From the IMG/VR virus record IMGVR_UViG_3300025070_000106, positions 1 through 36,475 of that record: DNA of 36,475 nt, one strand, 5' to 3'. The notes below the pieces were generated by a model. That model saw only the letters and a program-made list of their open reading frames with translations, was not told the origin of the DNA and searched no databases. Positions 14,642 to 36,475 of the stretch are shown here, piece after piece (position 1 is the stretch's first letter; the number at the start of each line of letters is the position of its first letter). This DNA is from a virus. Position numbers and translations under genes: made by a program.

Positions 14642-15535
14642 ATGGAACTAACAACCATTGACACTAACAATTACGCCGCAATGGCAAAGGCAATGGGCAT
14701 TGCCAACGAGACATCTAGTGAGCGTAAGCAAGCTAGTACTCTTGCCCGACTACGCATCAATCACTCACCTGTCATGGGTGAGGCAGAAGTAAATGGCAAG
14801 AACGTGAACATGGAAGTGGTCAGCGGTGGTACGTACAAGCTGGAAGTACCAGACGGACCTACATATTACGCAGAGTCGGTGAAGATTCGTCCGTATCTGC
14901 AACGCTTTATGTACAAGCGTTTTGTCCGTGGCATGGGTGATAGCCCTAACCGCTATGTCAAGACTGTCATGGCTGACAACCTGAACATTGACCTCAAGGA
15001 CAATGATGGTGGGTTCAACTGTGGTAAACCTGCTGGCTACATCCAAGACTTCAAGGCTCTGCCTGAGAAAACACAGGAACTCATCAAGCAGATTAAGCGT
15101 GTTCGTGTTGTGCTTGGCACTGTCGAACTGGTCAATGCCACAGACGCATCAGGCAATCCTGTGGACGTAGATGAGACTGCATTCATCTGGGAAGTAGAGA
15201 ACCGTGATGCGTTCAAGAACGTGGGTGGTGCCTTTACTCAACTCGCTAAGATGAAGCGACTGCCTGTGCAGCACATGATTACTGCGAATACAGAGGAGCG
15301 TAAGATTCCTACTGGTGCAGTCTTCTACCTGCCAATCGTGTCTCTTGACGTAACCAAGACCCTTGACCTTACAGACAAAGAACAGGGCATGTTTGGTGAC
15401 TTCATGCAGTGGGTCAACAACTACAACGAGTACATCATCAATGCATGGGCAGAGAAAGCTAACTCCCATGATGACGAGGATGATGAGGTTATCGTTGACG
15501 GCATCGTTGACATCGAAGTTGAAGAGGTAGCGTAA
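14642..15535 (+). CDS. Putative ssDNA-binding protein (acidic C-terminal tail)
   Basis: 297 residues, no named family. Two observations suggest a single-strand DNA-binding role like T7 gp2.5: the gene lies between polymerase and exonuclease, and the last 25 residues are highly acidic (SHDDEDDEVIVDGIVDIEVE), as in SSB tails that recruit partner proteins. The middle is strand-rich (VVLGTVELVNA, AVFYLPIVSLDV), compatible with an OB fold. AAGAAGGAG precedes ATG 14642. The next gene's ATG overlaps its stop. Confidence 0.55.
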   Translation: MELTTIDTNNYAAMAKAMGIANETSSERKQASTLARLRINHSPVMGEAEVNGKNVNMEVVSGGTYKLEVPDGPTYYAESVKIRPYLQRFMYKRFVRGMGDSPNRYVKTVMADNLNIDLKDNDGGFNCGKPAGYIQDFKALPEKTQELIKQIKRVRVVLGTVELVNATDASGNPVDVDETAFIWEVENRDAFKNVGGAFTQLAKMKRLPVQHMITANTEERKIPTGAVFYLPIVSLDVTKTLDLTDKEQGMFGDFMQWVNNYNEYIINAWAEKANSHDDEDDEVIVDGIVDIEVEEVA

Positions 15536-16425
15536 TGAACCACCCTGCTGAACTGGCTGTGCATCAATACATGGAGAACGCTGTTAAGGGTAAGTCCTCA
15601 ATGTCAGAGGATACCATTAAACAAGTAGGCCAAGATGTAATGAACGCACTTCAACGCCAGTTTGGTGGGGGTAACAAGCGAGATAAGTTTGGTCTACGTA
15701 TGTCAAACGTGGGTAGACCAACTTGTCAGCTTTGGTTTGAGAAGAACGAACCGGAGAAAGCGTTACCCTTTCCAACAACATTCGTAATGAACATGATGCT
15801 TGGAGATATCGTAGAGGCAGTCTTCAAGGGTCTTCTCAAAGAAGCAGGAGTACAGTATGAAGACGATGAAAAGGTTACTCTACAGCTTGATGACGATACA
15901 TCCATCACTGGCACCTATGATATTGTTATTGACGGTGCTGTTGATGATATTAAGTCAGCATCTAATTGGTCGTACACTAACAAGTTTGAATCCTTTGACA
16001 CTCTTAGACAGGGTGATGCTTTCGGGTATGTAGCACAGCTTGCTGGTTACGCCAAAGCATCAGGCAAACGTGCTGGTGGATGGTGGGTAGTTAACAAGGC
16101 AAACGGCGACTTCAAATATGTACCGGCTACAGGTATTGACGTTGATGCAGAAGTTGGCAAGATTAAAGACACAGCCGATACTATTGAAGAGAACAGGTTC
16201 GAGCGTTGCTTTGAGGCAGTTCCTGAGACATTCCGTGGTAAGCCTACAGGCAACACCGTGTTGGGTACTGAGTGTGGCTTCTGTCGTTACAAGTTCACAT
16301 GCTGGCCCGGACTGCAGGAACTACCTGCCGTTGCATCACAAGCCAAGCAACCTAAGACTGTCTCATACGTGTCACTTGCTGACGAGTATAAGGACAAGGA
16401 CTTCTTCAAGGGACGGGCAATGTAA
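15535..16425 (+). CDS. PD-(D/E)XK exonuclease with iron-sulfur-type cysteines (Cas4/RecB-like)
   Basis: 296 residues. Nuclease motifs: GDIVEAVFKG (motif I Glu), GTYDIVIDG (D129) and DDIKSAS (D138, K140), then QLAGYAKASG (the conserved Q...Y). Cysteines C64, C247, C250 and C256 follow the one-plus-three pattern that binds a 4Fe-4S cluster in Cas4 and AddB. Position between the SSB candidate and endonuclease I is that of the T7 gp6 exonuclease, so a role in recombination and host DNA breakdown is inferred. Starts at ATG 15535, overlapping the previous stop. Confidence 0.8.
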   Translation: MNHPAELAVHQYMENAVKGKSSMSEDTIKQVGQDVMNALQRQFGGGNKRDKFGLRMSNVGRPTCQLWFEKNEPEKALPFPTTFVMNMMLGDIVEAVFKGLLKEAGVQYEDDEKVTLQLDDDTSITGTYDIVIDGAVDDIKSASNWSYTNKFESFDTLRQGDAFGYVAQLAGYAKASGKRAGGWWVVNKANGDFKYVPATGIDVDAEVGKIKDTADTIEENRFERCFEAVPETFRGKPTGNTVLGTECGFCRYKFTCWPGLQELPAVASQAKQPKTVSYVSLADEYKDKDFFKGRAM

Positions 16426-16880
16426 TGCCTAACGCAAAGCAATTCCGTGCCGCACGGAAGTATGGATATAGGAGTGGCCTGGAACACAAGGTATCTATCT
16501 ATCTTGACGAACTAAAGATAAAGTATGAGTATGAAAAGTACAAGATTGAATGGGAAGACCTTGCATACCGCACCTATACTCCAGACTTCGTGCTGGATAA
16601 CGGTATCATCATTGAGACAAAGGGTATGTTTACAGCAGCAGATAGACGCAAGCATCTTGCAATCAAGAAGCAGCATCCTAAGTTAGATATACGGTTTGTG
16701 TTTGAGAACAGCAGACGAAAGCTACGTAAGGGTGCCAAGTCTACCTACGCTGAGTGGTGCATCAAGTATGGGTTCAGATACTATGACCGCATCATACCAG
16801 AGGATTGGCTGAAGGAGAAGGGCAAGAACAAGCATCCTAAGTTTATCAAGTTTAGTGGAACCAAAGTGAAAAGGAGATAG
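16425..16880 (+). CDS. Endonuclease I, Holliday junction resolvase (T7 gp3-like)
   Basis: 151 residues, nearly the size of T7 endonuclease I (149). The active-site set is present in order and almost at T7 numbering: E20 (SGLEHK), D54 (YTPDFVL), E64 and K66 (IIIETKG). The rest also fits the family (RKHLAIKKQHP, DIRFVFENS, IPEDWLKEKG). It cleaves branched DNA such as four-way junctions, clearing replication intermediates before packaging. Starts at an ATG one base into the previous stop. Confidence 0.92.
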   Translation: MPNAKQFRAARKYGYRSGLEHKVSIYLDELKIKYEYEKYKIEWEDLAYRTYTPDFVLDNGIIIETKGMFTAADRRKHLAIKKQHPKLDIRFVFENSRRKLRKGAKSTYAEWCIKYGFRYYDRIIPEDWLKEKGKNKHPKFIKFSGTKVKRR

Positions 16881-30343: not shown

Positions 30344-31390
30344 CTATAACTCCGCACTAATATCAAGCGCACCATTGTGAAGGTACTGAACATCGTTGGC
30401 ATTTCGACTTGTTGCACTAGCCATAAAAAAGTTCATTGTCGTAAAGTCACTAAATGTTGGTGTGCCGGTATAACCTGAACCGCTGCTAAATGCAGTGCTT
30501 ATAGAAACACTGGGAGCCGCCCTCATTATTACAGGTATGTTATACTGTGTGAGAGGCGTACCTCCATCGTGATGCCATCTACCAGCCAAATGGTATGAGA
30601 ACGGTTCAGTCCGAATAAAGTACCTCTGGCACCTAGTCATCTCATCGCCAAACGACCGATGCTCAAACGGCGTGGCCTGTTCGCCGATTTCCATTTGAAT
30701 GCCAGAGATGAAAAAGTTATTAGCTGCGTCATCTCCGATATTTACTTGACCTACTGCCCTGTTAGCAGATGTTGTTGACTCCCAAGATGTTGCCAGCGTT
30801 CCTGATGTGTATGTGGAACCCGCTTGAAGCCACCAAGTTAGTCTAAAACTTTCTCCGTTATCATTATTCAATGCTCCAGAGGTGTCACCGTCAAATGTTA
30901 CTTCTTTGTATTCAAAAGTATTAGCAGAGGAAACTGTGTACGCTTTTGATATGCTTCTGGTATTGTCTCTATCTTGTATTTCTAGGATGTGTGTTCCTGT
31001 TTTTGGAGAACGGACGTAAAAAGATATCGTTACTTTTTTTGCGCCAGACGTACCTTTTTGTAGCTGCTGCAAATCTTGGCCTTCAATCCTATAGTGTAAT
31101 TGAGTAAAATCCCCTGCACTAAGTGATGCGTCAGCGGTAGTACAATCTAGTTTTAAACTGTTAGCAAAACCATCAGGGGCTGTAGTGTCTTGGCTGGCTG
31201 TATAAACAGTGGAAGTTCCGTTCATAGAAAACGCAAACCTATCCGCAACAAGGTAGCCCTCGCTTGATGTGCTAAACGTAGCTGACGTACCCCGCTGTGC
31301 CACCTGCATCGCACCGTTGATAATCATGTTCCTGTTCGACAACGCCGTCTGCGAACCAATCAGTGCGGCGAGTTCTGCTGCCTTACTCAT
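30344..31390 (-). CDS. Tail-fibre or receptor-binding protein
   Basis: 348 residues. The N-terminal block NRNMIINGAMQVAQRGT and the later EQATPFEHRSFGDEMTRCQRYF are typical of phage tail proteins with a jelly-roll, carbohydrate-binding-like central domain (ITISFYVRSPKTGTH region). The C-terminus is Ser/Thr/Asn-rich. It would contact the host surface. Its ATG is preceded by GGAGACCTCGC, the conserved cassette junction. Confidence 0.7.
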   Translation of the reverse strand: MSKAAELAALIGSQTALSNRNMIINGAMQVAQRGTSATFSTSSEGYLVADRFAFSMNGTSTVYTASQDTTAPDGFANSLKLDCTTADASLSAGDFTQLHYRIEGQDLQQLQKGTSGAKKVTISFYVRSPKTGTHILEIQDRDNTRSISKAYTVSSANTFEYKEVTFDGDTSGALNNDNGESFRLTWWLQAGSTYTSGTLATSWESTTSANRAVGQVNIGDDAANNFFISGIQMEIGEQATPFEHRSFGDEMTRCQRYFIRTEPFSYHLAGRWHHDGGTPLTQYNIPVIMRAAPSVSISTAFSSGSGYTGTPTFSDFTTMNFFMASATSRNANDVQYLHNGALDISAEL

Positions 31391-31788
31391 GCGAGGTCTC
31401 CGTGTACAGTAACACTGCCAGTTGTTTCAATGTCATAGGCAGTAAAATGGGCAGTGCTACCCGCTGTGTATCCTGCGTCAACTTCCACACTGCTTGTTGT
31501 TTTACTTTCAACCACTAGATGCCGTGTATTATTGTTAGCAGCATGATTGAAATTGATGGTGGATGTCACTGAATAAGTGGCACTGTTCATTGCGCTACTA
31601 TAGTTAAGTCCGTATTCTCCCGTGCCATCATCATCAATACTCGACAAATTGAAACTGTCGGGCAGAGATGCTCCACCTGCTGCAAGATGGCCCCACGCCT
31701 TCGCACTACCCCCTGCAACAAAGCTGGTGGCAATGCTGTTGTTCCCAGAGGCATCCTTTAGGGTGTTTACTCTCAGTTCACTAGCCAT
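31387..31788 (-). CDS. GDLA-cassette tail protein, paralog 1
   Basis: 133 residues. Shares the layout of its paralogs: N-terminal ASELRVNTLKDASGN, then GSAKAWGHL, the core DSFNLSSIDDDGTGEYG with SSAMNSATYSV, and the C-terminal VHGDLA. Sequence between conserved blocks differs widely, as expected for receptor-facing surfaces. Probably a trimeric fibre or tip component; no known enzyme fold. Confidence 0.65.
   Translation of the reverse strand: MASELRVNTLKDASGNNSIATSFVAGGSAKAWGHLAAGGASLPDSFNLSSIDDDGTGEYGLNYSSAMNSATYSVTSTINFNHAANNNTRHLVVESKTTSSVEVDAGYTAGSTAHFTAYDIETTGSVTVHGDLA
31389..31401 (-). repeat. Cassette junction repeat, copy 1
   Basis: GGAGACCTCGCAT on the minus strand. It encodes the GDLA end of paralog 1 and supplies GGAG plus the first two bases of the ATG of the fibre gene ending at 30344. 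Confidence 0.8.
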
Positions 31789-32189
31789 TATGCGAGGTCT
31801 CCTGCTGCCATTGCGTATACTTGGTCACGGTCAAGGTTACTGCCGCCTTGTGGGTAGTAAGCACTACACCTGAGAACAGATGTAGTTTGAGAACCCCCTG
31901 TTATAGAACCAAACACATCATTAGAACCCGTATTAGCAACAGCAGAATAATTAGCATTGCCCATTGCATTTGTTAAATTTCCAGAATAATCACCTGTTCC
32001 GTTATCTGTGAAAGATGCAACATTAAAACTATCTAGGCCGCCAATAGTGCCGCTGCCATCTAGCTTAAACCATACCTTAACCAGCCCCTGCTGCAAATTC
32101 GTTGTGGTTGAGTTGCCCTCGCCTGTCACCGCAATAGAGCCAGCCGTGGCTACCCCTGTGATTGTATCTACTTTGAGTATGCTTGCCAT
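31788..32189 (-). CDS. GDLA-cassette tail protein, paralog 2
   Basis: 133 residues from ATG 32189, beginning MASILKVDTITGVATAG. It carries KVWFKLDG in place of KAW, the core DSFNVASFTDNGTGDYS with NAMGNANYSA, and ends AAGDLA. The LKVDTI start is common in marine phage tail proteins. An upstream in-frame start would lie inside the junction repeat and is rejected. Confidence 0.65.
   Translation of the reverse strand: MASILKVDTITGVATAGSIAVTGEGNSTTTNLQQGLVKVWFKLDGSGTIGGLDSFNVASFTDNGTGDYSGNLTNAMGNANYSAVANTGSNDVFGSITGGSQTTSVLRCSAYYPQGGSNLDRDQVYAMAAGDLA
31790..31802 (-). repeat. Cassette junction repeat, copy 2
   Basis: Same 13 bases, read as GDLA of paralog 2, followed by TAATG, the start of paralog 1. 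Confidence 0.8.
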
Positions 32190-32551
32190 TATGCGAGGTC
32201 TCCATGAATTGTAACGCAATGACTTGTATCATCGTTGGACCCCGCATCAGAAAGTTCTACGGCAATAGTAGAAGCGGAATACCTTGCAGTGTTTTGTGTG
32301 AGATTCCGTCGTTGGTCAGTGCTGGATGCCATGCCTGACTGTGAGTAATCATTATTAACCATAGCATTAGTAAAACTGTAACTATAATCACCTGTTCCGT
32401 GGTCGGTTCCACTGCCAACATTAAAAGAATCAGTTGTTCCCGCTGTAGTAGTGCCATACAGCCACGCCTTCCCCGCATGTTGCTTCGTCAGCCCTACCGG
32501 CCCCGTACCCGCCTTGTCAGCAATCGTGTCTACATTCAATACGCTGGTCAT
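32189..32551 (-). CDS. GDLA-cassette tail protein, paralog 3
   Basis: 120 residues from ATG 32551 (GGAG upstream), MTSVLNVDTIADKAG, then HAGKAWLYG, the core DSFNVGSGTDHGTGDYS with NAMVNNDYS, and IHGDLA at the end. Its 3' 167 nt are almost identical to the partial gene at 36307. The ATG overlaps the upstream stop as ATGA. Confidence 0.7.
   Translation of the reverse strand: MTSVLNVDTIADKAGTGPVGLTKQHAGKAWLYGTTTAGTTDSFNVGSGTDHGTGDYSYSFTNAMVNNDYSQSGMASSTDQRRNLTQNTARYSASTIAVELSDAGSNDDTSHCVTIHGDLA
32191..32203 (-). repeat. Cassette junction repeat, copy 3
   Basis: Same 13 bases at the end of paralog 3, followed by TAATG of paralog 2. Confidence 0.8.
32191..32357 (-). repeat. Near-identical duplication (with 36309-36475)
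   Basis: 167 nt match 36309-36475 with four differences, while the other paralogs share only short motifs. This points to a recent duplication or gene conversion between cassettes 4.1 kb apart. The second copy may extend beyond the window. Confidence 0.85.
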
Positions 32552-33006
32552 ACGATGCTCCAATATCCGTTGACAGTGACGGTGGCACTCTGCGTAATCG
32601 GCCCTGCCGACACACCGTTCTCGTCGCTGTCAATCGTGATGTCTGCGCTGATGGTCTGACCGTTCAAGCGGATGATGCTGTTGTTGCCCTTGAATGGGTA
32701 GCGTGTGTCAGCCTCAGTCTTTGTGTAGGCATTGTTCACAGAGAACACATCGTACACGACCATCTCAACTGTATCATTCAGGCTGGCCCCAGTTACCAAC
32801 ACAACCGTCGTGCCTGTTGTGGCTGTGTAGTCCGTGCCGGGTACGAGAAGCACACCGTTCTGGTACACATCCATGTACAGGCTGTCTGAGTAGTTCAGGA
32901 CACCACTGCTGGCATCACTGCCGCTGAATGATGTCTGACCGGCAGTGGCCTGATACTGGTAGCGGTTACGAACACCGGCTGATGGGGATTTACCTATGTA
33001 TGGCAT
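32548..33006 (-). CDS. Tail-fibre connector-like structural protein
   Basis: 152 residues. MPYIGKSPSAGVRNRYQYQATAGQT and the following VDVYQNGVLL-type block are widespread in marine phages as the N-terminal part of fibre proteins (here VYQNGVLLVPGTDYTATTG). The end (DITIDSDENGVSAGPI) is strand-rich. Likely attaches a fibre to the tail or forms its shaft. Confidence 0.65.
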   Translation of the reverse strand: MPYIGKSPSAGVRNRYQYQATAGQTSFSGSDASSGVLNYSDSLYMDVYQNGVLLVPGTDYTATTGTTVVLVTGASLNDTVEMVVYDVFSVNNAYTKTEADTRYPFKGNNSIIRLNGQTISADITIDSDENGVSAGPITQSATVTVNGYWSIV

Positions 33007-33015
33007 GGTTGTTCC

Positions 33016-33297
33016 TTATGGTGTCTCTTGTGCATCCATTGCAGTCTGGTATGCAGTCTTTACAGCGTCGGACCACACGGCATTGCAGATAGCTTGCACC
33101 TCAGTGCTTTCGCTAGAGATATCAGTATCGCCCCAAGTGTCGCCTGACTTGGTGCTGCATTGCAGCACATGACGATGAAAGCTGCGGCTAATCTCAACGC
33201 CATCACGCTTGATAACTGTAGCGGTGCGTACTTGTACGGCTTTGTAGTCGCCTACTACTTCAATCTTGTCTTCTACTGTTTCTTCTGTCAGTGCCAT
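33016..33297 (-). CDS. Conserved phage protein of unknown function
   Basis: 93 residues, MALTEETVEDKIEVVGDYK, then QVRTATVIKRDGVEISRSF. This start pattern is common in tail regions of cyanophages and related viruses. Function unknown, possibly minor tail or assembly. Preceded on the minus strand by TAGGAG. Confidence 0.65.
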   Translation of the reverse strand: MALTEETVEDKIEVVGDYKAVQVRTATVIKRDGVEISRSFHRHVLQCSTKSGDTWGDTDISSESTEVQAICNAVWSDAVKTAYQTAMDAQETP

Positions 33298-33310
33298 TTT
33301 TATCTCCTAT

Positions 33311-33327
33311 GGTTGGACTGTCCGACC
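33311..33327. other. Intergenic hairpin
   Basis: GGTTGGA and TCCGACC (one G-T pair) enclose the 3-nt loop CTG in the 46-nt gap between two tail genes. No T-run follows on either strand, so a terminator role is doubtful; mRNA processing or pausing is possible. Confidence 0.35.
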
Positions 33328-33343
33328 CTCACCTCTAGTGGGG

Positions 33344-34096
33344 TTAAGCTGTAAGATAAGTCAAACTGAAACCTACGTCGGATGACCCGCTTTTCAGATG
33401 ACTCAGGCTGAGACTGTTTGAAGCAGTGTTGTCGAAGTCTAATGTAAACTGCAATTTATCACCACTGTTTGCGAATGTTGTTGGATGAACAGTCACACCT
33501 GTAATAGTTCCCGTCGTATTCCAATTATTTAGGTGAACACAACCAAAAGGCGCACTCCCCGCCACTTTATCAAAAGGCAATCCACCTACGAATACATCAC
33601 CCGAACCAGCCGACGATTCTGTTATGTTGTTGAGCATAACTTGTAAGGTAACAGTGCGTCCTATCTTGGTATAGTTTGCATACGGTGAGTTTCCACTTGT
33701 GGTGTAAGTGTAAGTTCCCGCAGTGGATGAGCCAAAAAATGTCGGCGTCCAAGTACCCTCCTCGTAATCGCTGAGAGCATTGGCACTGCCGGTGCCGCCG
33801 ATGTACAAGTTGCCGCCAAGATATAGGTCTTTGAAGCGGTTGTTAGATGCGCCTAAATCACTAGCGTTGTCACTGTCGCTTCCGTTTTCTCTTGGTGTGA
33901 TTGCGCCGTTGGCAAAGCGTATACCTTCGTGACCGCTTTCACCGTCAATGTAAAAGCCGCTAGACTGTGACCCTAATGCACCAAATCGTGTGCCGTCTTT
34001 CTGTACCTCAACTATATCGCCGTGACTTGTTGCACGGTTAACCGTCAGGCTGTCAATGGCACCAACGCCTTCACCAGTGATTTTTGTCAGTGCCAT
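33344..34096 (-). CDS. Tail-fibre or structural protein (DYEEGTWTPT)
   Basis: 250 residues. The N-terminal block MALTKITGEGVGAIDSLTVN, the repeat-like FKDLYLGGNLYIGG and the motif DYEEGTWTPTFFGSS are frequent in marine phage fibre proteins. The C-terminal half is a strand-rich domain, perhaps a sandwich fold. Probably virion surface; no enzyme motif. Confidence 0.7.
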   Translation of the reverse strand: MALTKITGEGVGAIDSLTVNRATSHGDIVEVQKDGTRFGALGSQSSGFYIDGESGHEGIRFANGAITPRENGSDSDNASDLGASNNRFKDLYLGGNLYIGGTGSANALSDYEEGTWTPTFFGSSTAGTYTYTTSGNSPYANYTKIGRTVTLQVMLNNITESSAGSGDVFVGGLPFDKVAGSAPFGCVHLNNWNTTGTITGVTVHPTTFANSGDKLQFTLDFDNTASNSLSLSHLKSGSSDVGFSLTYLTA

Positions 34097-34108
34097 TGCC
34101 TATGCTCC

Positions 34109-34480
34109 TTATGCGTATGGGCTGTCGCCAAGTACGCTTGTATCCCAAGCTGCCTTGAGTTTAGCGATTGTGTCTGCGTTAGTGATTGCAGATGCAGCAG
34201 GTGCATCACGCAGTGCAGCCTTCTTGGTCACTGATGCTGCCTTTGCGTCGGCATCGTCAGCCTCAAGTGCCTTCATGTACACTACGTCCTCTGCCTCAAG
34301 CAGTGGCGCACGTACCTCACGGATTTTGTCCTTGAAGATTGCTTTGGCTGCTGTCATGTCCTCAGAGATAACGCTGCCACTCAATGACCATGCACCACGA
34401 AAGTGACGGTCAGAAGGAACGGTAGCCGATGAGGCATCAATCTGATTCCCGTCCTTGTCTACGATGTATGTTGTTGCCAT
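34109..34480 (-). CDS. Tail-associated conserved protein
   Basis: 123 residues: FRGAWSLSGSVISEDMTAA followed by a long helical, Lys/Asp/Ala-rich region (FKDKIREVRAPLLEAEDVVY). This arrangement is common in proteins beside phage fibres and is often called tail-fibre assembly, without firm evidence. Confidence 0.6.
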   Translation of the reverse strand: MATTYIVDKDGNQIDASSATVPSDRHFRGAWSLSGSVISEDMTAAKAIFKDKIREVRAPLLEAEDVVYMKALEADDADAKAASVTKKAALRDAPAASAITNADTIAKLKAAWDTSVLGDSPYA

Positions 34481-34494
34481 TAGGTTTCTCCCTC

Positions 34495-34971
34495 TTAGGC
34501 TGCTAAATCAGTGACGCTAAGTTCTTCAGTAATCTTCCAAGCATTGCGCCACTCTCGTGTGCCGGGAAGCTGTTCCTTGTGGCAGATAACCATCTTTGGT
34601 TTGTTGCCTTCATTCCAAGACCGCCATACAGACTGTGGGCAGTCCTTCATAATCAGGTACTCAATCGCCTGTTCTTCTGTCATTGCATCAACAGGCTTGG
34701 TGTTGTGCAGCAGAAAGCCACGAGTGTGCTTCTTGAAGTCAGGCTTTGCTTCGTCTTTGGCTAGTTCCCAGTAGACTTCGACAGGTGGCAGGATACCGCC
34801 CTGTAGCGCACACGCCATCCAGTTAGGGTCAGGCACCAGTATCTTAGCGCATTCGTCCACGCTGTCCTCGTACACAACACGATAGTCAGACTGATGCGGC
34901 TCTAGGGTTTCTTTGGCCCAGCAGAGCCTATCCCATAGATGTGTGCCTTGAAACTCTGGTGTCACTGTCAT
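34495..34971 (-). CDS. Hypothetical tail-region protein
   Basis: 158 residues, rich in Trp and charged residues (MTVTPEFQGTHLWDRLCW; MKDCPQSVWRSWNEGNKPK). I do not recognise a family, though similar proteins occur among tail genes of cyanophages. It lies next to a GDLA cassette and its ATG follows the junction repeat. An adaptor or chaperone for fibres is possible. Confidence 0.6.
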   Translation of the reverse strand: MTVTPEFQGTHLWDRLCWAKETLEPHQSDYRVVYEDSVDECAKILVPDPNWMACALQGGILPPVEVYWELAKDEAKPDFKKHTRGFLLHNTKPVDAMTEEQAIEYLIMKDCPQSVWRSWNEGNKPKMVICHKEQLPGTREWRNAWKITEELSVTDLAA

Positions 34972-35330
34972 GCGAGGTCTCCGTGATTACAAGTGCAATT
35001 TTGCGTAGCATCTGCATCGTTAAATGACGCATCTCGTGACCTACACTTTCCTTGTGTGCTTGTAACTGCGCCATTTATCATTGCAACAGCAGCGGTAGAC
35101 GTGAAGGGCATAGACCAGTTTGCATTACTCATTGCATTACTCATGGTATAAGAAAATCTACCAGCCGCATCGTCTGACACAGAACTTACGTTGTAGCTTC
35201 CATCTATGCTGTTAGAAGTTTGATTATAATCTAACCACGCCTTCGCACTACCGTTGACAACGTAATTCGTAGCCAGCGAACCCGCAGTCGAGTGCGTCAG
35301 GGTATCTGCTTTAAGTGTACCGAATGCCAT
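34968..35330 (-). CDS. GDLA-cassette tail protein, paralog 4
   Basis: 120 residues, MAFGTLKADTLTHSTAG, then NGSAKAWLDYN, the core SYNVSSVSDDAAGRFS with NAMSNANWSM, and NHGDLA at the end. More diverged than paralogs 1-3 (three Cys near the end: GKCRSRD, NCTCNHG). Its stop overlaps the next ATG inside the junction repeat. Confidence 0.65.
   Translation of the reverse strand: MAFGTLKADTLTHSTAGSLATNYVVNGSAKAWLDYNQTSNSIDGSYNVSSVSDDAAGRFSYTMSNAMSNANWSMPFTSTAAVAMINGAVTSTQGKCRSRDASFNDADATQNCTCNHGDLA
34970..34982 (-). repeat. Cassette junction repeat, copy 4
   Basis: Same 13 bases at the end of paralog 4; the stop overlaps the start of the 158-residue protein gene as ATGA. Confidence 0.8.
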
Positions 35331-35341
35331 CTATGCTACTC

Positions 35342-36310
35342 CTAACACGCCATCAATACGCATGGCACAAGATACGTGCCATCATCGTAAGTATGTGACT
35401 TAGTGGTCGATGTGACCTTCGCAATCGTCTTACTGCGAACAATGTCATCGTCCTGCGGCTTGGCAGTGCCGTCACCGGCAGACATCAGCAAGTCTCCTCT
35501 AGCTACTGTCGTGCCGCTGGCAATGCGGATGACCATATCGCCAGTCATTGCAATGTTCATGTCGGCGGTGTAGTCCTCGTCATCATCATCCCAATTAACA
35601 AAGACACCGGCCACGTTTGCGTCACCCTCGACTGACGACACGGCCATACAGTTTAGCTGCTCGTTGTCTTCTGTCACACCATCTTTCGTCCACACCGCCA
35701 TCTGGTCGAGGTTGGTCATCACGGTGCCTTTGACAATGCTTGTGTCTTTTGTGCCGTCTGTAAGCTGTGACCAGCGAGATATATGCCCCCCAACATATGA
35801 TACCGTTGTTCCGCTTACAGATATGCCGCCTTCAAGTGTGCCAGCTTGAGTGAAGTTAATTAAACCGCCATCATCCCCGTTACGGTTTACATTCATAGGC
35901 GTACCGTTGCTGGCACTAAAATTGGATGCAGCACTTCCGGTAAGTCTTACGCCATCTGTTCCAAAATCAGTGGCAGTCTTACCTATTAGCACGTCAGTAC
36001 CGGAAATACGCATACGTTCAGAGCCGCCAGAAAACATCACCAAATCGTTTGTTAATGCACCAACTCTTACGGAACCATCATTGGATGTATTTGCATCTGA
36101 GAAAGTAGCAAAAGCATATGCTCCGGCTGTATGAGTTATGCTTGCAACCCTATTCCCACTGCCATCAATTGTTAGTGTTCTTGCGGGAGAATTTGTGCCG
36201 ATGCCCACATTACCCGACGCAACTAGAACATCGCCCGTGCCATCAGGGTCGAGGGTGATGTCGTTGTTACTCGCAAGGCTGGTGATTTTGTTTGTCTTTA
36301 CTTCACTCAT
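35342..36310 (-). CDS. Tail-fibre protein with conserved C-terminal domain
   Basis: 322 residues. N-terminal MSEVKTNKITSLASNNDI and NVGIGTNSPARTLTI repeats form a typical phage fibre start. From about residue 175 a well-conserved marine domain appears: GHISRWSQLTDGT, EDNEQLNCMAVSS, NWDDDDEDY, ARGDLLMSAGDGTAKPQ, DDIVRSKTIAKV, and the final VPCVLMAC. This end may act as an intramolecular folding or trimerisation domain; whether it is cleaved off is not visible. Host binding is inferred. Confidence 0.7.
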   Translation of the reverse strand: MSEVKTNKITSLASNNDITLDPDGTGDVLVASGNVGIGTNSPARTLTIDGSGNRVASITHTAGAYAFATFSDANTSNDGSVRVGALTNDLVMFSGGSERMRISGTDVLIGKTATDFGTDGVRLTGSAASNFSASNGTPMNVNRNGDDGGLINFTQAGTLEGGISVSGTTVSYVGGHISRWSQLTDGTKDTSIVKGTVMTNLDQMAVWTKDGVTEDNEQLNCMAVSSVEGDANVAGVFVNWDDDDEDYTADMNIAMTGDMVIRIASGTTVARGDLLMSAGDGTAKPQDDDIVRSKTIAKVTSTTKSHTYDDGTYLVPCVLMAC

Positions 36311-36475
36311 GCGAGGTCTCCATGAATTGTAACGCAGTGACTTGTATCATCGGCGGACCCCGCATCAGAAAGTTCTACGGCAATAGTAGAAGCGGAATAC
36401 CTTGCAGTGTTTTGTGTGAGATTCCGTCGTTGGTCAGTGCTGGATGCCATGCCTGACTGTGAGTAATCATCATTA
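36307..36475 (-). CDS. GDLA-cassette tail protein, paralog 5 (partial)
   Basis: The 3' part of another cassette gene; the start lies beyond the window. The visible 167 nt differ from the end of paralog 3 at only four positions, two of them changing an amino acid (N to A and N to D). It ends IHGDLA, and its TGA overlaps the ATG of the next gene. Confidence 0.7.
   Translation of the reverse strand, partial: NDDYSQSGMASSTDQRRNLTQNTARYSASTIAVELSDAGSADDTSHCVTIHGDLA
36309..36321 (-). repeat. Cassette junction repeat, copy 5
   Basis: Same 13 bases at the end of paralog 5; the stop overlaps the start of the 322-residue fibre gene as ATGA. Confidence 0.8.

Follow-up and report, generated by a model that had tools for sequence, protein, structure and literature searches.

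In an array of small tail-fibre genes, the moving unit is a C-terminal body of about 90 residues, which is exchanged as a whole between a 5' box and a 13-mer junction, across slots and across genomes. The identity of each slot is set by an N-terminal cap, and the caps stay in fixed order. The array lies in the window analysed here, the 36,475 nt of IMG/VR virus record IMGVR_UViG_3300025070_000106 (positions 1 to 36,475), a fragment whose end falls inside a repeat. Most likely it is a multi-slot set of small tail-fibre proteins, which would serve in receptor binding, of an HMO-2011-type marine phage. The top isolate match of the window is Puniceispirillum phage HMO-2011 (GU557055), and the window carries a DNA polymerase A with a DnaJ CXXCXGXG insert, a tyrosine integrase and an endonuclease I in the same module order, an assignment based on Pfam matches and the HMO-2011 annotation, in which the DnaJ match (25.9 bits) lies below the curated cut-off (32.7). 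HMO-2011 shares its genome plan and slot order with the window; its five GDLA cassettes carry the variants CTA, CTC, CTT and TTA at the junction, and their bodies are unlike those of the window. Its tail genes are annotated merely as putative tail fibre or tail-related. The comparison set comprised 664 related genes from about 198 HMO-2011-like phage loci; HMO-2011 is the only isolate among the array carriers and all others are metagenome contigs, so the events described below represent natural variation and not recombination that was observed directly.

The dual-use junction and the cassette genes

The 13-mer GGAGACCTCGCAT occurs in five exact copies in the window, all on the minus strand (Table 1). 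With up to two mismatches there were six hits against 0.58 expected, and six were reached by 0 of 100 dinucleotide shuffles, on which a chance repeat was rejected; the reversed 13-mer, taken as a control, had zero matches. A sequence-only reading had placed every copy at a gene boundary with a role in both neighbours, and this holds: at all five copies a small tail-fibre paralog ends in the four codons GGA GAC CTC GCA (GDLA), and GGAG lies 7-10 nt 5' of the ATG of the downstream gene. The fifth copy also ends a cassette gene, but that gene is itself cut by the record end. The cassette stop, TAA or TGA, is completed by the downstream gene and overlaps the ATG of that gene (GCATAATG or GCATGA). 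The common GDLA codons double as the next ribosome site, and the last bases of the stop (T+AA or T+GA) come from the downstream gene, so that every body can occupy every slot with both frames and the next start intact.

The junction codons were compared with the same codons elsewhere in 262 genes from 13-mer-blind loci. GGA was used in 258/262 (22.5% elsewhere in the same genes), GAC in 239/262 (91% vs 36%), CTC in 124/262 (47% vs 6%), and GCA in 244/262 (38.5% elsewhere); in the TAA class, where the start overlap imposes no need for it, GCA still reached 89%. Base entropy is about 1.8 bits ahead of the box and drops to about 0 at most positions within it. Variation is lowest at GGAG and GCAT, the parts that act directly in translation; the leucine codon is variable, and the exact 13-mer, present in 114 of the 262 genes, is no more than the most frequent form of the junction. 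Across the 664 related genes, the last four codons are fixed at the DNA level far beyond protein requirement.

The four complete cassette genes match the PHROG 11355 tail fiber protein profile (E 6.7e-14 to 3.3e-16); Pfam gave zero matches to the cassette proteins tested, and one cassette protein used as a query against bacterial and archaeal genome contigs brought up no relatives. The single N-terminal block (LKVDTI) that had been proposed for the paralogs gave way to several recurrent slot-specific caps. At the boundary between cap and body lies a second box, GSAKAW/GLAKAW, with the core GCGAAGGCKTGG. In the AF2 model the cap corresponds to residues 1-27 and the body to residues 28-120, a predicted single beta-sandwich with K30-A-W32 within its first strand. 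The nearest solved structures include tailspike C-terminal domains, AP22 gp53, R-pyocin fibres and H-type lectins (Z 5-8), and the matches are moderate: Z 8.0 (7eea, 70 residues, 1.9 A), 7.2 (5jsd), 6.4 (4mtm), 5.5 (2cgy) and 5.4 (6ct8). Foldseek against the PDB found nothing with E below 0.15, and a PDB sequence search with the family profile gave a single meaningless hit, a nanobody (E 0.27).

Table 1. Features of the window that bear on the tail-fibre array and on recombination.
Feature	Position	Strand	Details
Candidate single-stranded-DNA-binding/annealing protein, acidic tail	14642..15535	+	AF2 pLDDT 64; Z 6.3 to RB69 gp32 core, 169 residues
Cas4-domain exonuclease	15535..16425	+	PHROG 1990 E 1.2e-36
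T7-type endonuclease I (Holliday-junction resolvase family)	16425..16880	+	PF05367 E 3.7e-49
SKAAEL tail-fibre gene	30344..31390	-	Fixed neighbour downstream of array; PHROG 4492 tail fiber E 3.7e-66
SELR-slot cassette gene	31387..31788	-	Cap MASELRVNTLKDASGNNS + body; PHROG 11355 E 2.9e-14
13-mer junction 1 (3' box)	31389..31401	-	SELR-slot gene end, SKAAEL gene start; exact match; ...GGAGACCTCGCATGAGTAAG
Variable body, SELR slot	31402..31692	-	Between two boxes; 87% to L131 SELR-slot body
5' box, SELR slot	31693..31710	-	GGTAGTGCGAAGGCGTGG (GSAKAW); kept among relatives
SILK-slot cassette gene	31788..32189	-	Cap MASILKVDTITGVATAGS + body; PHROG 11355 E 1.5e-14
13-mer junction 2	31790..31802	-	SILK-slot gene end, SELR-slot gene start; exact match; GCATAATGGCTAGT
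Variable body, SILK slot	31803..32069	-	Between two boxes
5' box, SILK slot	32070..32087	-	GGGCTGGTTAAGGTATGG (GLVKVW)
TSVL-slot cassette gene	32189..32551	-	Cap MTSVLNVDTIADKAGTGP + body; PHROG 11355 E 3.3e-16
13-mer junction 3	32191..32203	-	TSVL-slot gene end, SILK-slot gene start; exact match; GCATAATGGCAAGC
Variable body, TSVL slot	32204..32461	-	98-99% across slots: near-identical in STLK slot of L129, L130, L131
5' box, TSVL slot	32462..32479	-	HAGKAW; sequence and translation
YIGKSP tail gene	32548..33006	-	Fixed neighbour; PHROG 18345; position constant
TPEF gene	34495..34971	-	Fixed neighbour, 158 aa; AGKI/FGTLK -> TPEF in 91/92 loci
FGTLK-slot cassette gene	34968..35330	-	Cap MAFGTLKADTLTHSTAGS + body; PHROG 11355 E 6.7e-14; AF2 pLDDT 86.5
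13-mer junction 4	34970..34982	-	FGTLK-slot gene end, TPEF gene start; exact match; GCATGACAGTG
Variable body, FGTLK slot	34983..35234	-	100% in L130 (same slot); 91% in L123 (SELR slot)
5' box, FGTLK slot	35235..35252	-	GGTAGTGCGAAGGCGTGG (GSAKAW), 18 nt identical to SELR-slot box; L123 breakpoint here
SEVKTNK gene	35342..36310	-	322 aa virion-like protein, second slot; PHROG 19195; same place in L067, L098, L128
Cut cassette gene	36308..36475	-	Truncated by record end; STLK slot by comparison with L129-L131; body duplicates TSVL slot
13-mer junction 5	36309..36321	-	Cut (STLK-slot) gene end, SEVKTNK gene start; exact match; GCATGAGTGAAG

Exchange of bodies among slots and genomes

The cut gene (36309-36475) is identical to 32191-32357 at 163 of 167 positions, with the identity stopping exactly at the 13-mer, and its body is 99-100% identical to the STLK-slot body of L129, L130 and L131. 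No within-contig body duplicates above 60% identity were found among complete genes, and this cut copy is the sole case seen. The FGTLK-slot body of the window sits on another cap in L123.

Among the loci, slot order is near constant: TSVL is followed by SILK in 92/96, SILK by SELR in 84/89, AGKI by TPEF in 58/58, FGTLK by TPEF in 33/34, and SELR by SKAAEL in 64/79. When the same slot was compared between loci, nucleotide identity was 0.68-0.88 for caps and 0.62-0.91 for the downstream part, and 0.55-0.56 for bodies, against 0.53-0.54 for shuffled sequence. Pairs of body tails at least 88% identical had a different downstream gene in 40/57 cases (24/34 clusters), compared with 95/512 pairs for other genes of the same loci. 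The fraction found in the same slot declines as bodies diverge (0.48, 0.32, 0.33, 0.19 and 0.17, with a random expectation of 0.167), and in 20 of 24 cross-slot pairs the bodies were more identical than the marker genes.

The edges of the exchanged segments coincide with the two conserved boxes that flank them. In 1109 replacement gaps with both flanks of at least 100 nt, which are not independent of one another, 84% of the 5' edges fell within -20..+15 nt of the 5' box, and 89% of the 3' edges fell within 8 nt of the GDLA codons, a position that is partly forced by the conservation of these codons everywhere. In the cleanest case, one body is replaced between the loci L035 and L070, which share 99.8% identity over 5991 nt and 99.3% over 822 nt in the sequence around it; its edges map to the KAF box and to the first base of GDLA. 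The L035 body is identical (245/245) to the body in a different slot, SILK, of L039, which is the same strain as L070 (99.8% over 6.1 kb); this identity starts inside the box and ends 10 nt beyond the 13-mer. L035 also differs from L070 in the final stretch of the cap and in the opening bases of the cap that follows, which is why the swap was probably derived from a third phage by same-slot recombination.

The sequence-only reading had located recombination at the junction itself. Identity between otherwise different genes does start or stop at the 13-mer, and 3' edges among relatives lie there, but the moving unit is the body, which needs the second box, and the other edges lie at that 5' box.

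Proposed mechanism and alternatives

We propose, and consider likely as a whole, a system of fixed slot caps and interchangeable receptor-binding bodies that are swapped between the 5' box and the 13-mer. Each cap, remaining in its place and order, would probably set the joining site on the tail, and would carry one interchangeable body that is replaced as a unit. The caps may thereby give each protein its place in the virion, and the bodies are most likely the receptor-binding tips. Exchange would proceed by annealing-type homologous recombination between co-infecting phages through the short homology of the boxes, and same-slot swaps would additionally use the homology of the cap and the downstream sequence. 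A recombination enzyme would presumably carry out the exchange; the low-confidence model of the 14642-15535 product weakly suggests a resemblance to gp32 and may be taken as a lead only. Whether the boxes are kept at the DNA level for recombination, giving a shared pool of adhesin bodies open to any slot of any member and combinatorial multi-slot recognition without a dedicated recombinase, is a tentative extension that we regard as possible but doubtful.

It is rather unlikely that the 13-mer is kept by translation and protein function alone, with random recombination and selection that spares edges at domain boundaries. Such edges are the expected residue of selection on function, the translational positions of the junction are the least variable, and modular tail-fibre exchange is common (Smug 2023, PMC10684548); nevertheless, GAC and TAA-class GCA are fixed as DNA without obvious translational reason, CTC likewise exceeds its usage within the genes, and the 5' box, which has no ribosome-site role, is also conserved at the DNA level (GGTAGTGCGAAGGCKTGG in 59/85 GSAKAW genes). 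The original proposal, in which recombination between 13-mer copies adds, removes or rearranges entire tail genes, would have been contradicted by constant cassette order among relatives, and the near-constant order over more than 70 loci largely refutes it. Slots are lost in L125 and L131 and added in L146/L147/L172, but these are few loci, in L125, the deletion with the best resolution, the FGTLK cap is joined to a TSVL-slot body at the 5' box and not at the 13-mer, and one body is found on differing caps, so we consider whole-gene rearrangement very unlikely as the source of the variation.

Assembly chimeras of metagenome contigs are, if anything, less probable still. Short-read contigs make up most of the loci and the window ends within a repeat, but joints of 12-24 nt, the length of the shared boxes, are short for chimera formation, a chimera presupposes a body already present in two contexts, the L035 cap bases are found in neither L070 nor L039, and cross-slot sharing spans the whole divergence range and is far rarer in control genes of the same loci. 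The least probable explanation is a dedicated system, which the localised hypervariability of adhesin-like proteins adjoining short repeats might suggest. PF00078 (reverse transcriptase) was unmatched in the window record (a fragment) and in HMO-2011 and CRP-345 (both complete), and bodies differ by wholesale replacement rather than point changes; a diversity-generating retroelement was rejected on the absence of a linked reverse transcriptase from these three. A shufflon or other invertible adhesin system based on a site-specific invertase was rejected since inverted copies of the crossover site are absent, the five 13-mers having one orientation, and the 5' and 3' boxes are unlike in sequence.

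Relation to known systems and significance

Motif-mediated adhesin exchange is already known in principle. In T-even-type adhesins, as outlined in the passages concerned (ref. 66 in PMC12529663), host-recognition segments are swapped between short conserved motifs flanking hypervariable segments; those motifs lie inside one adhesin locus, whereas several fixed-slot caps share one body pool in our array, and its 3' motif, unlike theirs, serves in addition as stop and as ribosome site for the gene that follows. Domain shuffling of receptor-binding proteins (Smug et al. 2023, PMC10684548) likewise combines a conserved N-terminal attachment part with a variable C-terminal domain in many combinations, but the section on it describes no fixed nucleotide boxes, cross-slot multi-slot array or shared gene-junction element. 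Metaviromic islands of marine phages (Mizuno et al. 2014, PMC3909814) also vary most in host-recognition genes, with the N-terminus conserved and the C-terminus variable; the passages concerned describe under-recruitment and do not give an exchange unit, boundary or mechanism. The start-associated sequence (SAS) of cluster K mycobacteriophages (Pope et al. 2011, PMC3203893) is a 13-bp asymmetric repeat that includes a ribosome site just 5' of many starts. It belongs to non-structural genes, typically 3-7 bp ahead of the start, with a proposed role in translation initiation, and a breakpoint role is not reported in the passages concerned; its consensus GGGATAGGAGCCC and location differ, and the 13-mer was rejected as a member. 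What seems to be new is an array of several slots that share a universal dual-use junction.

HMO-2011-type phages are very common among the bacterial viruses of the ocean. If the proposed mechanism is true, their host range could change through a ready-made domain acquired from a shared pool instead of slow mutation, and the phages could sample several receptors simultaneously. Body, slot and box are precise testable units, and the junction is an example of gene design in which any incoming module leaves both neighbours translatable. Body exchange also offers a reason for the hypervariable look of the tail genes of these phages in metagenomes.

The junction in the window and in related phages

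Each small tail-fibre gene (cassette) at this locus joins a slot-specific N-terminal cap to a variable C-terminal body of about 90 aa. The 13-mer GGAGACCTCGCAT closing these genes occurs in the window in five exact copies, all at gene boundaries as the sequence-only reading had claimed, each ending a small gene with the codons GGA GAC CTC GCA (GDLA) and then TAA or TGA; with up to two mismatches allowed there are 6 matches, where 0.58 would be expected, and no shuffle out of 100 yields that many. The claimed union of GDLA end, ribosome site and next start in one junction was likewise found at all five copies, where the stop is overlapped by the ATG of the next gene (GCATAATG or GCATGA) and GGAG lies 7-10 nt upstream of that ATG. 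All four complete genes ending in the 13-mer match PHROG 11355 ("tail fiber protein"). The fifth is interrupted by the record end; the 167 bases of it that are present match the end of one of the other genes (Table) at 98% identity, and the match ceases exactly at the 13-mer; thus, the window itself holds one copied gene end bounded by the junction. The record terminus falls within this duplicated body, and a break of the assembly at the repeat is the probable reason.

Coordinates of features in the window (nt)
Feature	Position	Remark
13-mer copy	start 31389	- strand
13-mer copy	start 31790	- strand
13-mer copy	start 32191	- strand
13-mer copy	start 34970	- strand
13-mer copy	start 36309	- strand
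Gene whose end is duplicated in the fifth gene	32189-32551	
Duplicated body with record terminus	36308-36475	
Cassette gene of the modelled protein	34968-35330	
Example of a body in the G+C comparison	31402-31692	
SEVKTNK gene	35342-36310	322 aa
Conserved protein with acidic tail	14642-15535	
Identity to related locus L130	36475 to 34109	97-100%
Identity to related locus L128	34480 to 31402	about 100%

A search of IMG/VR with GGAGACCTCGCATRATG matched at least 120 stretches, and the fetched loci hold 224 exact 13-mers. Each of them precedes a TAA or TGA stop and an ATG that overlaps or adjoins it; judged by eye among the matches listed, nearly all lie in the cassette family, with one clear chance match (L106). 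A second retrieval, which used a profile with patterns in the protein body and was blind to the 13-mer, raised the number of distinct genes to 664. The GDLA terminus is present in 727 of 780 family ORFs. In the blind loci, the last codons are GGA in 258, GAC in 239, CTC in 124 and GCA in 244 of 262 genes, against a background use in the same genes of 22.5%, 36%, 6% and 38.5%. The exact 12 nt occur in 114 of these 262 (44%), the main variants differing only in the leucine codon, and base entropy drops from about 1.8 bits directly ahead of the box to near zero at most box positions.

The record, a linear virus contig in IMG/VR, is of HMO-2011 type, with Puniceispirillum phage HMO-2011 as the best isolate match (82% over 924 bases). 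The window encodes an integrase, a T7-type endonuclease I, a Cas4-type exonuclease and a DNA polymerase with a DnaJ-like insert (weak match). Its strongly conserved protein with an acidic tail, "hypothetical" in HMO-2011, has at least 80 close relatives in IMG/VR and gave a weak model that weakly resembles the T4/RB69 gp32 core. The window record, HMO-2011 and CRP-345 showed no match to a reverse transcriptase. The two long identities to other loci (Table) look as if the window were a recombinant of two close relatives, or two overlapping variants.

Gene order and movement of bodies

The caps are few, recurring and slot-specific, and the bodies are extremely variable: between contigs, same-slot caps are 68-88% identical and the first 60 nt of the next gene 62-91%, and same-slot bodies are 55-56% identical, with shuffled sequence at 53-54%. 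Named by cap, the slots run STLK, STILV or SEIK (or the SEVKTNK gene), AGKI or FGTLK and the TPEF gene, then other genes, the YIGKSP gene, TSVL, SILK, SELR and the SKAAEL gene. SILK comes next after TSVL in 92 of 96 loci, SELR after SILK in 84 of 89, and TPEF after AGKI or FGTLK in 91 of 92. The proposal that recombination reorders whole tail genes is therefore not supported, since their succession is nearly constant and it is the bodies that are reordered; of the proposed junction-based diversification, the identity edges at the 13-mer stand, but the moving unit is the body. The SEVKTNK gene replaces the second cassette slot in the window and likewise in L067, L098 and L128, and a minority arrangement (L146, L147, L172) has a SELR-type cap ahead of the YIGKSP gene, with extra cassettes. 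G+C is 0.41 in bodies of all slots, 0.49 in caps and 0.48 in downstream starts, as if there were a body pool with its own base composition.

The exchanged stretch has two edges. At the 3' edge, the 13-mer, pairs from different contexts are 0.83-1.00 identical up to the first stop base, and past base 3 identity is mostly 0.2-0.5. The 5' edge is a (G/A)(S/L/A)AK(A/S)W box where cap meets body, kept at the DNA level as GGTAGTGCGAAGGCKTGG in 59 of 85 GSAKAW genes. We also scored 1109 replacement gaps, which are not independent of one another and have at least 100 nt of flank on either side. In 84% of them the 5' edge is located between -20 and +15 nt from the box end. On the 3' side, 57% of edges coincide with the first GDLA base and 89% are no more than 8 nt away from it, percentages that conservation of the GDLA codons in part dictates. 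For the edges, the cross-slot pairs carry more weight as evidence.

Among body-end pairs (at least 88% identity over 120 nt), the downstream gene differs in 40 of 57 (24 of 34 clusters), whereas the remaining genes of these loci give 95 of 512 (15 of 61 clusters). For instance, L123 carries the window's FGTLK-slot body (91%) under a SELR cap, and L129-L131 carry the window's TSVL-slot body (98-99%) under an STLK cap. The same-slot fraction of body pairs falls from 0.48 (at least 95% aa identity) through 0.32, 0.33 and 0.19 to 0.17 (40-55%), the random value being 0.167, which indicates that slots are randomised with time. Body identity exceeds marker-gene identity in 20 of 24 cross-slot pairs having marker genes, a likeness that speaks for horizontal movement.

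The clearest case is a pair of loci, L035 and L070, which share 99.8% identity across 5991 nt on one side and 99.3% across 822 nt on the other side of a single replaced body (246 vs 258 nt) whose edges map to the box and GDLA. This STILV-slot body of L035 equals the SILK-slot body of L039 (245/245), and the L039 contig as such matches L070 at 99.8% over 6.1 kb; the identity between the two bodies starts inside the box, before which the caps differ, and stops 10 nt past the 13-mer. The same body occurs in the ALT slot of L176 at 96.7% identity. Because a few cap bases of L035 are unlike both relatives, the exchange probably drew in a third phage. L160 and L161 provide a second single-body replacement. 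A rarer alternative to body replacement is the join with deletion in L125, where an FGTLK cap meets a TSVL-slot body at the 5' box, with about 2 kb lost; over 578 nt, that body matches the one in L113 at 98.6%. Near position 2562 (oriented) of L125, the SKAAELA start of the large fibre gene is fused at GSAKVW to a cassette body.

The folded unit and a proposed exchange mechanism

One cassette protein was modelled with AlphaFold2 from a 111-sequence alignment (mean pLDDT 86.5). In the model, residues 1-27 form a loose cap and residues 28-120 a single beta-sandwich, whose first strand contains the KAW box and which closes with GDLA; the exchange unit is thus a whole folded domain. Cyanophage tail fibres are among the predicted viral relatives. 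Among solved structures, the best second-look alignments included two tailspike C-terminal domains, from Pam1 (Z 8.0) and phiAB6 (7.2), as well as AP22 gp53 (6.4) and, both at 5.3-5.5, R-pyocin fibres and Helix agglutinins; these scores are moderate, and unrelated beta proteins reach the same range. Given these likenesses, the bodies may bind receptors.

Beyond the directly supported boxes, unit, edges, movement and slot order, we infer that homologous recombination at the short boxes between co-infecting phages would exchange the bodies. Same-slot swaps could also use the longer homology of cap and downstream gene; cross-slot swaps alone would rely solely on the boxes. Phage recombinases tolerate short, diverged homology (De Paepe 2014, PMC3945230). 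Researchers have found that T-even phages swap adhesin specificity by recombination between conserved motifs (Tetart 1998, as cited in PMC12529663). Receptor-binding proteins are known to shuffle their domains (PMC10684548), and C-termini that vary have been described for marine phages (PMC3909814). The 13-bp start-associated repeat of cluster K mycobacteriophages (PMC3203893) is unlike the 13-mer in sequence, place and role. The papers searched, an incomplete set, do not describe a multi-slot array whose bodies are interchangeable and whose genes share a dual-use junction. The sequence-only reading was right in its observation and partly right in its interpretation.
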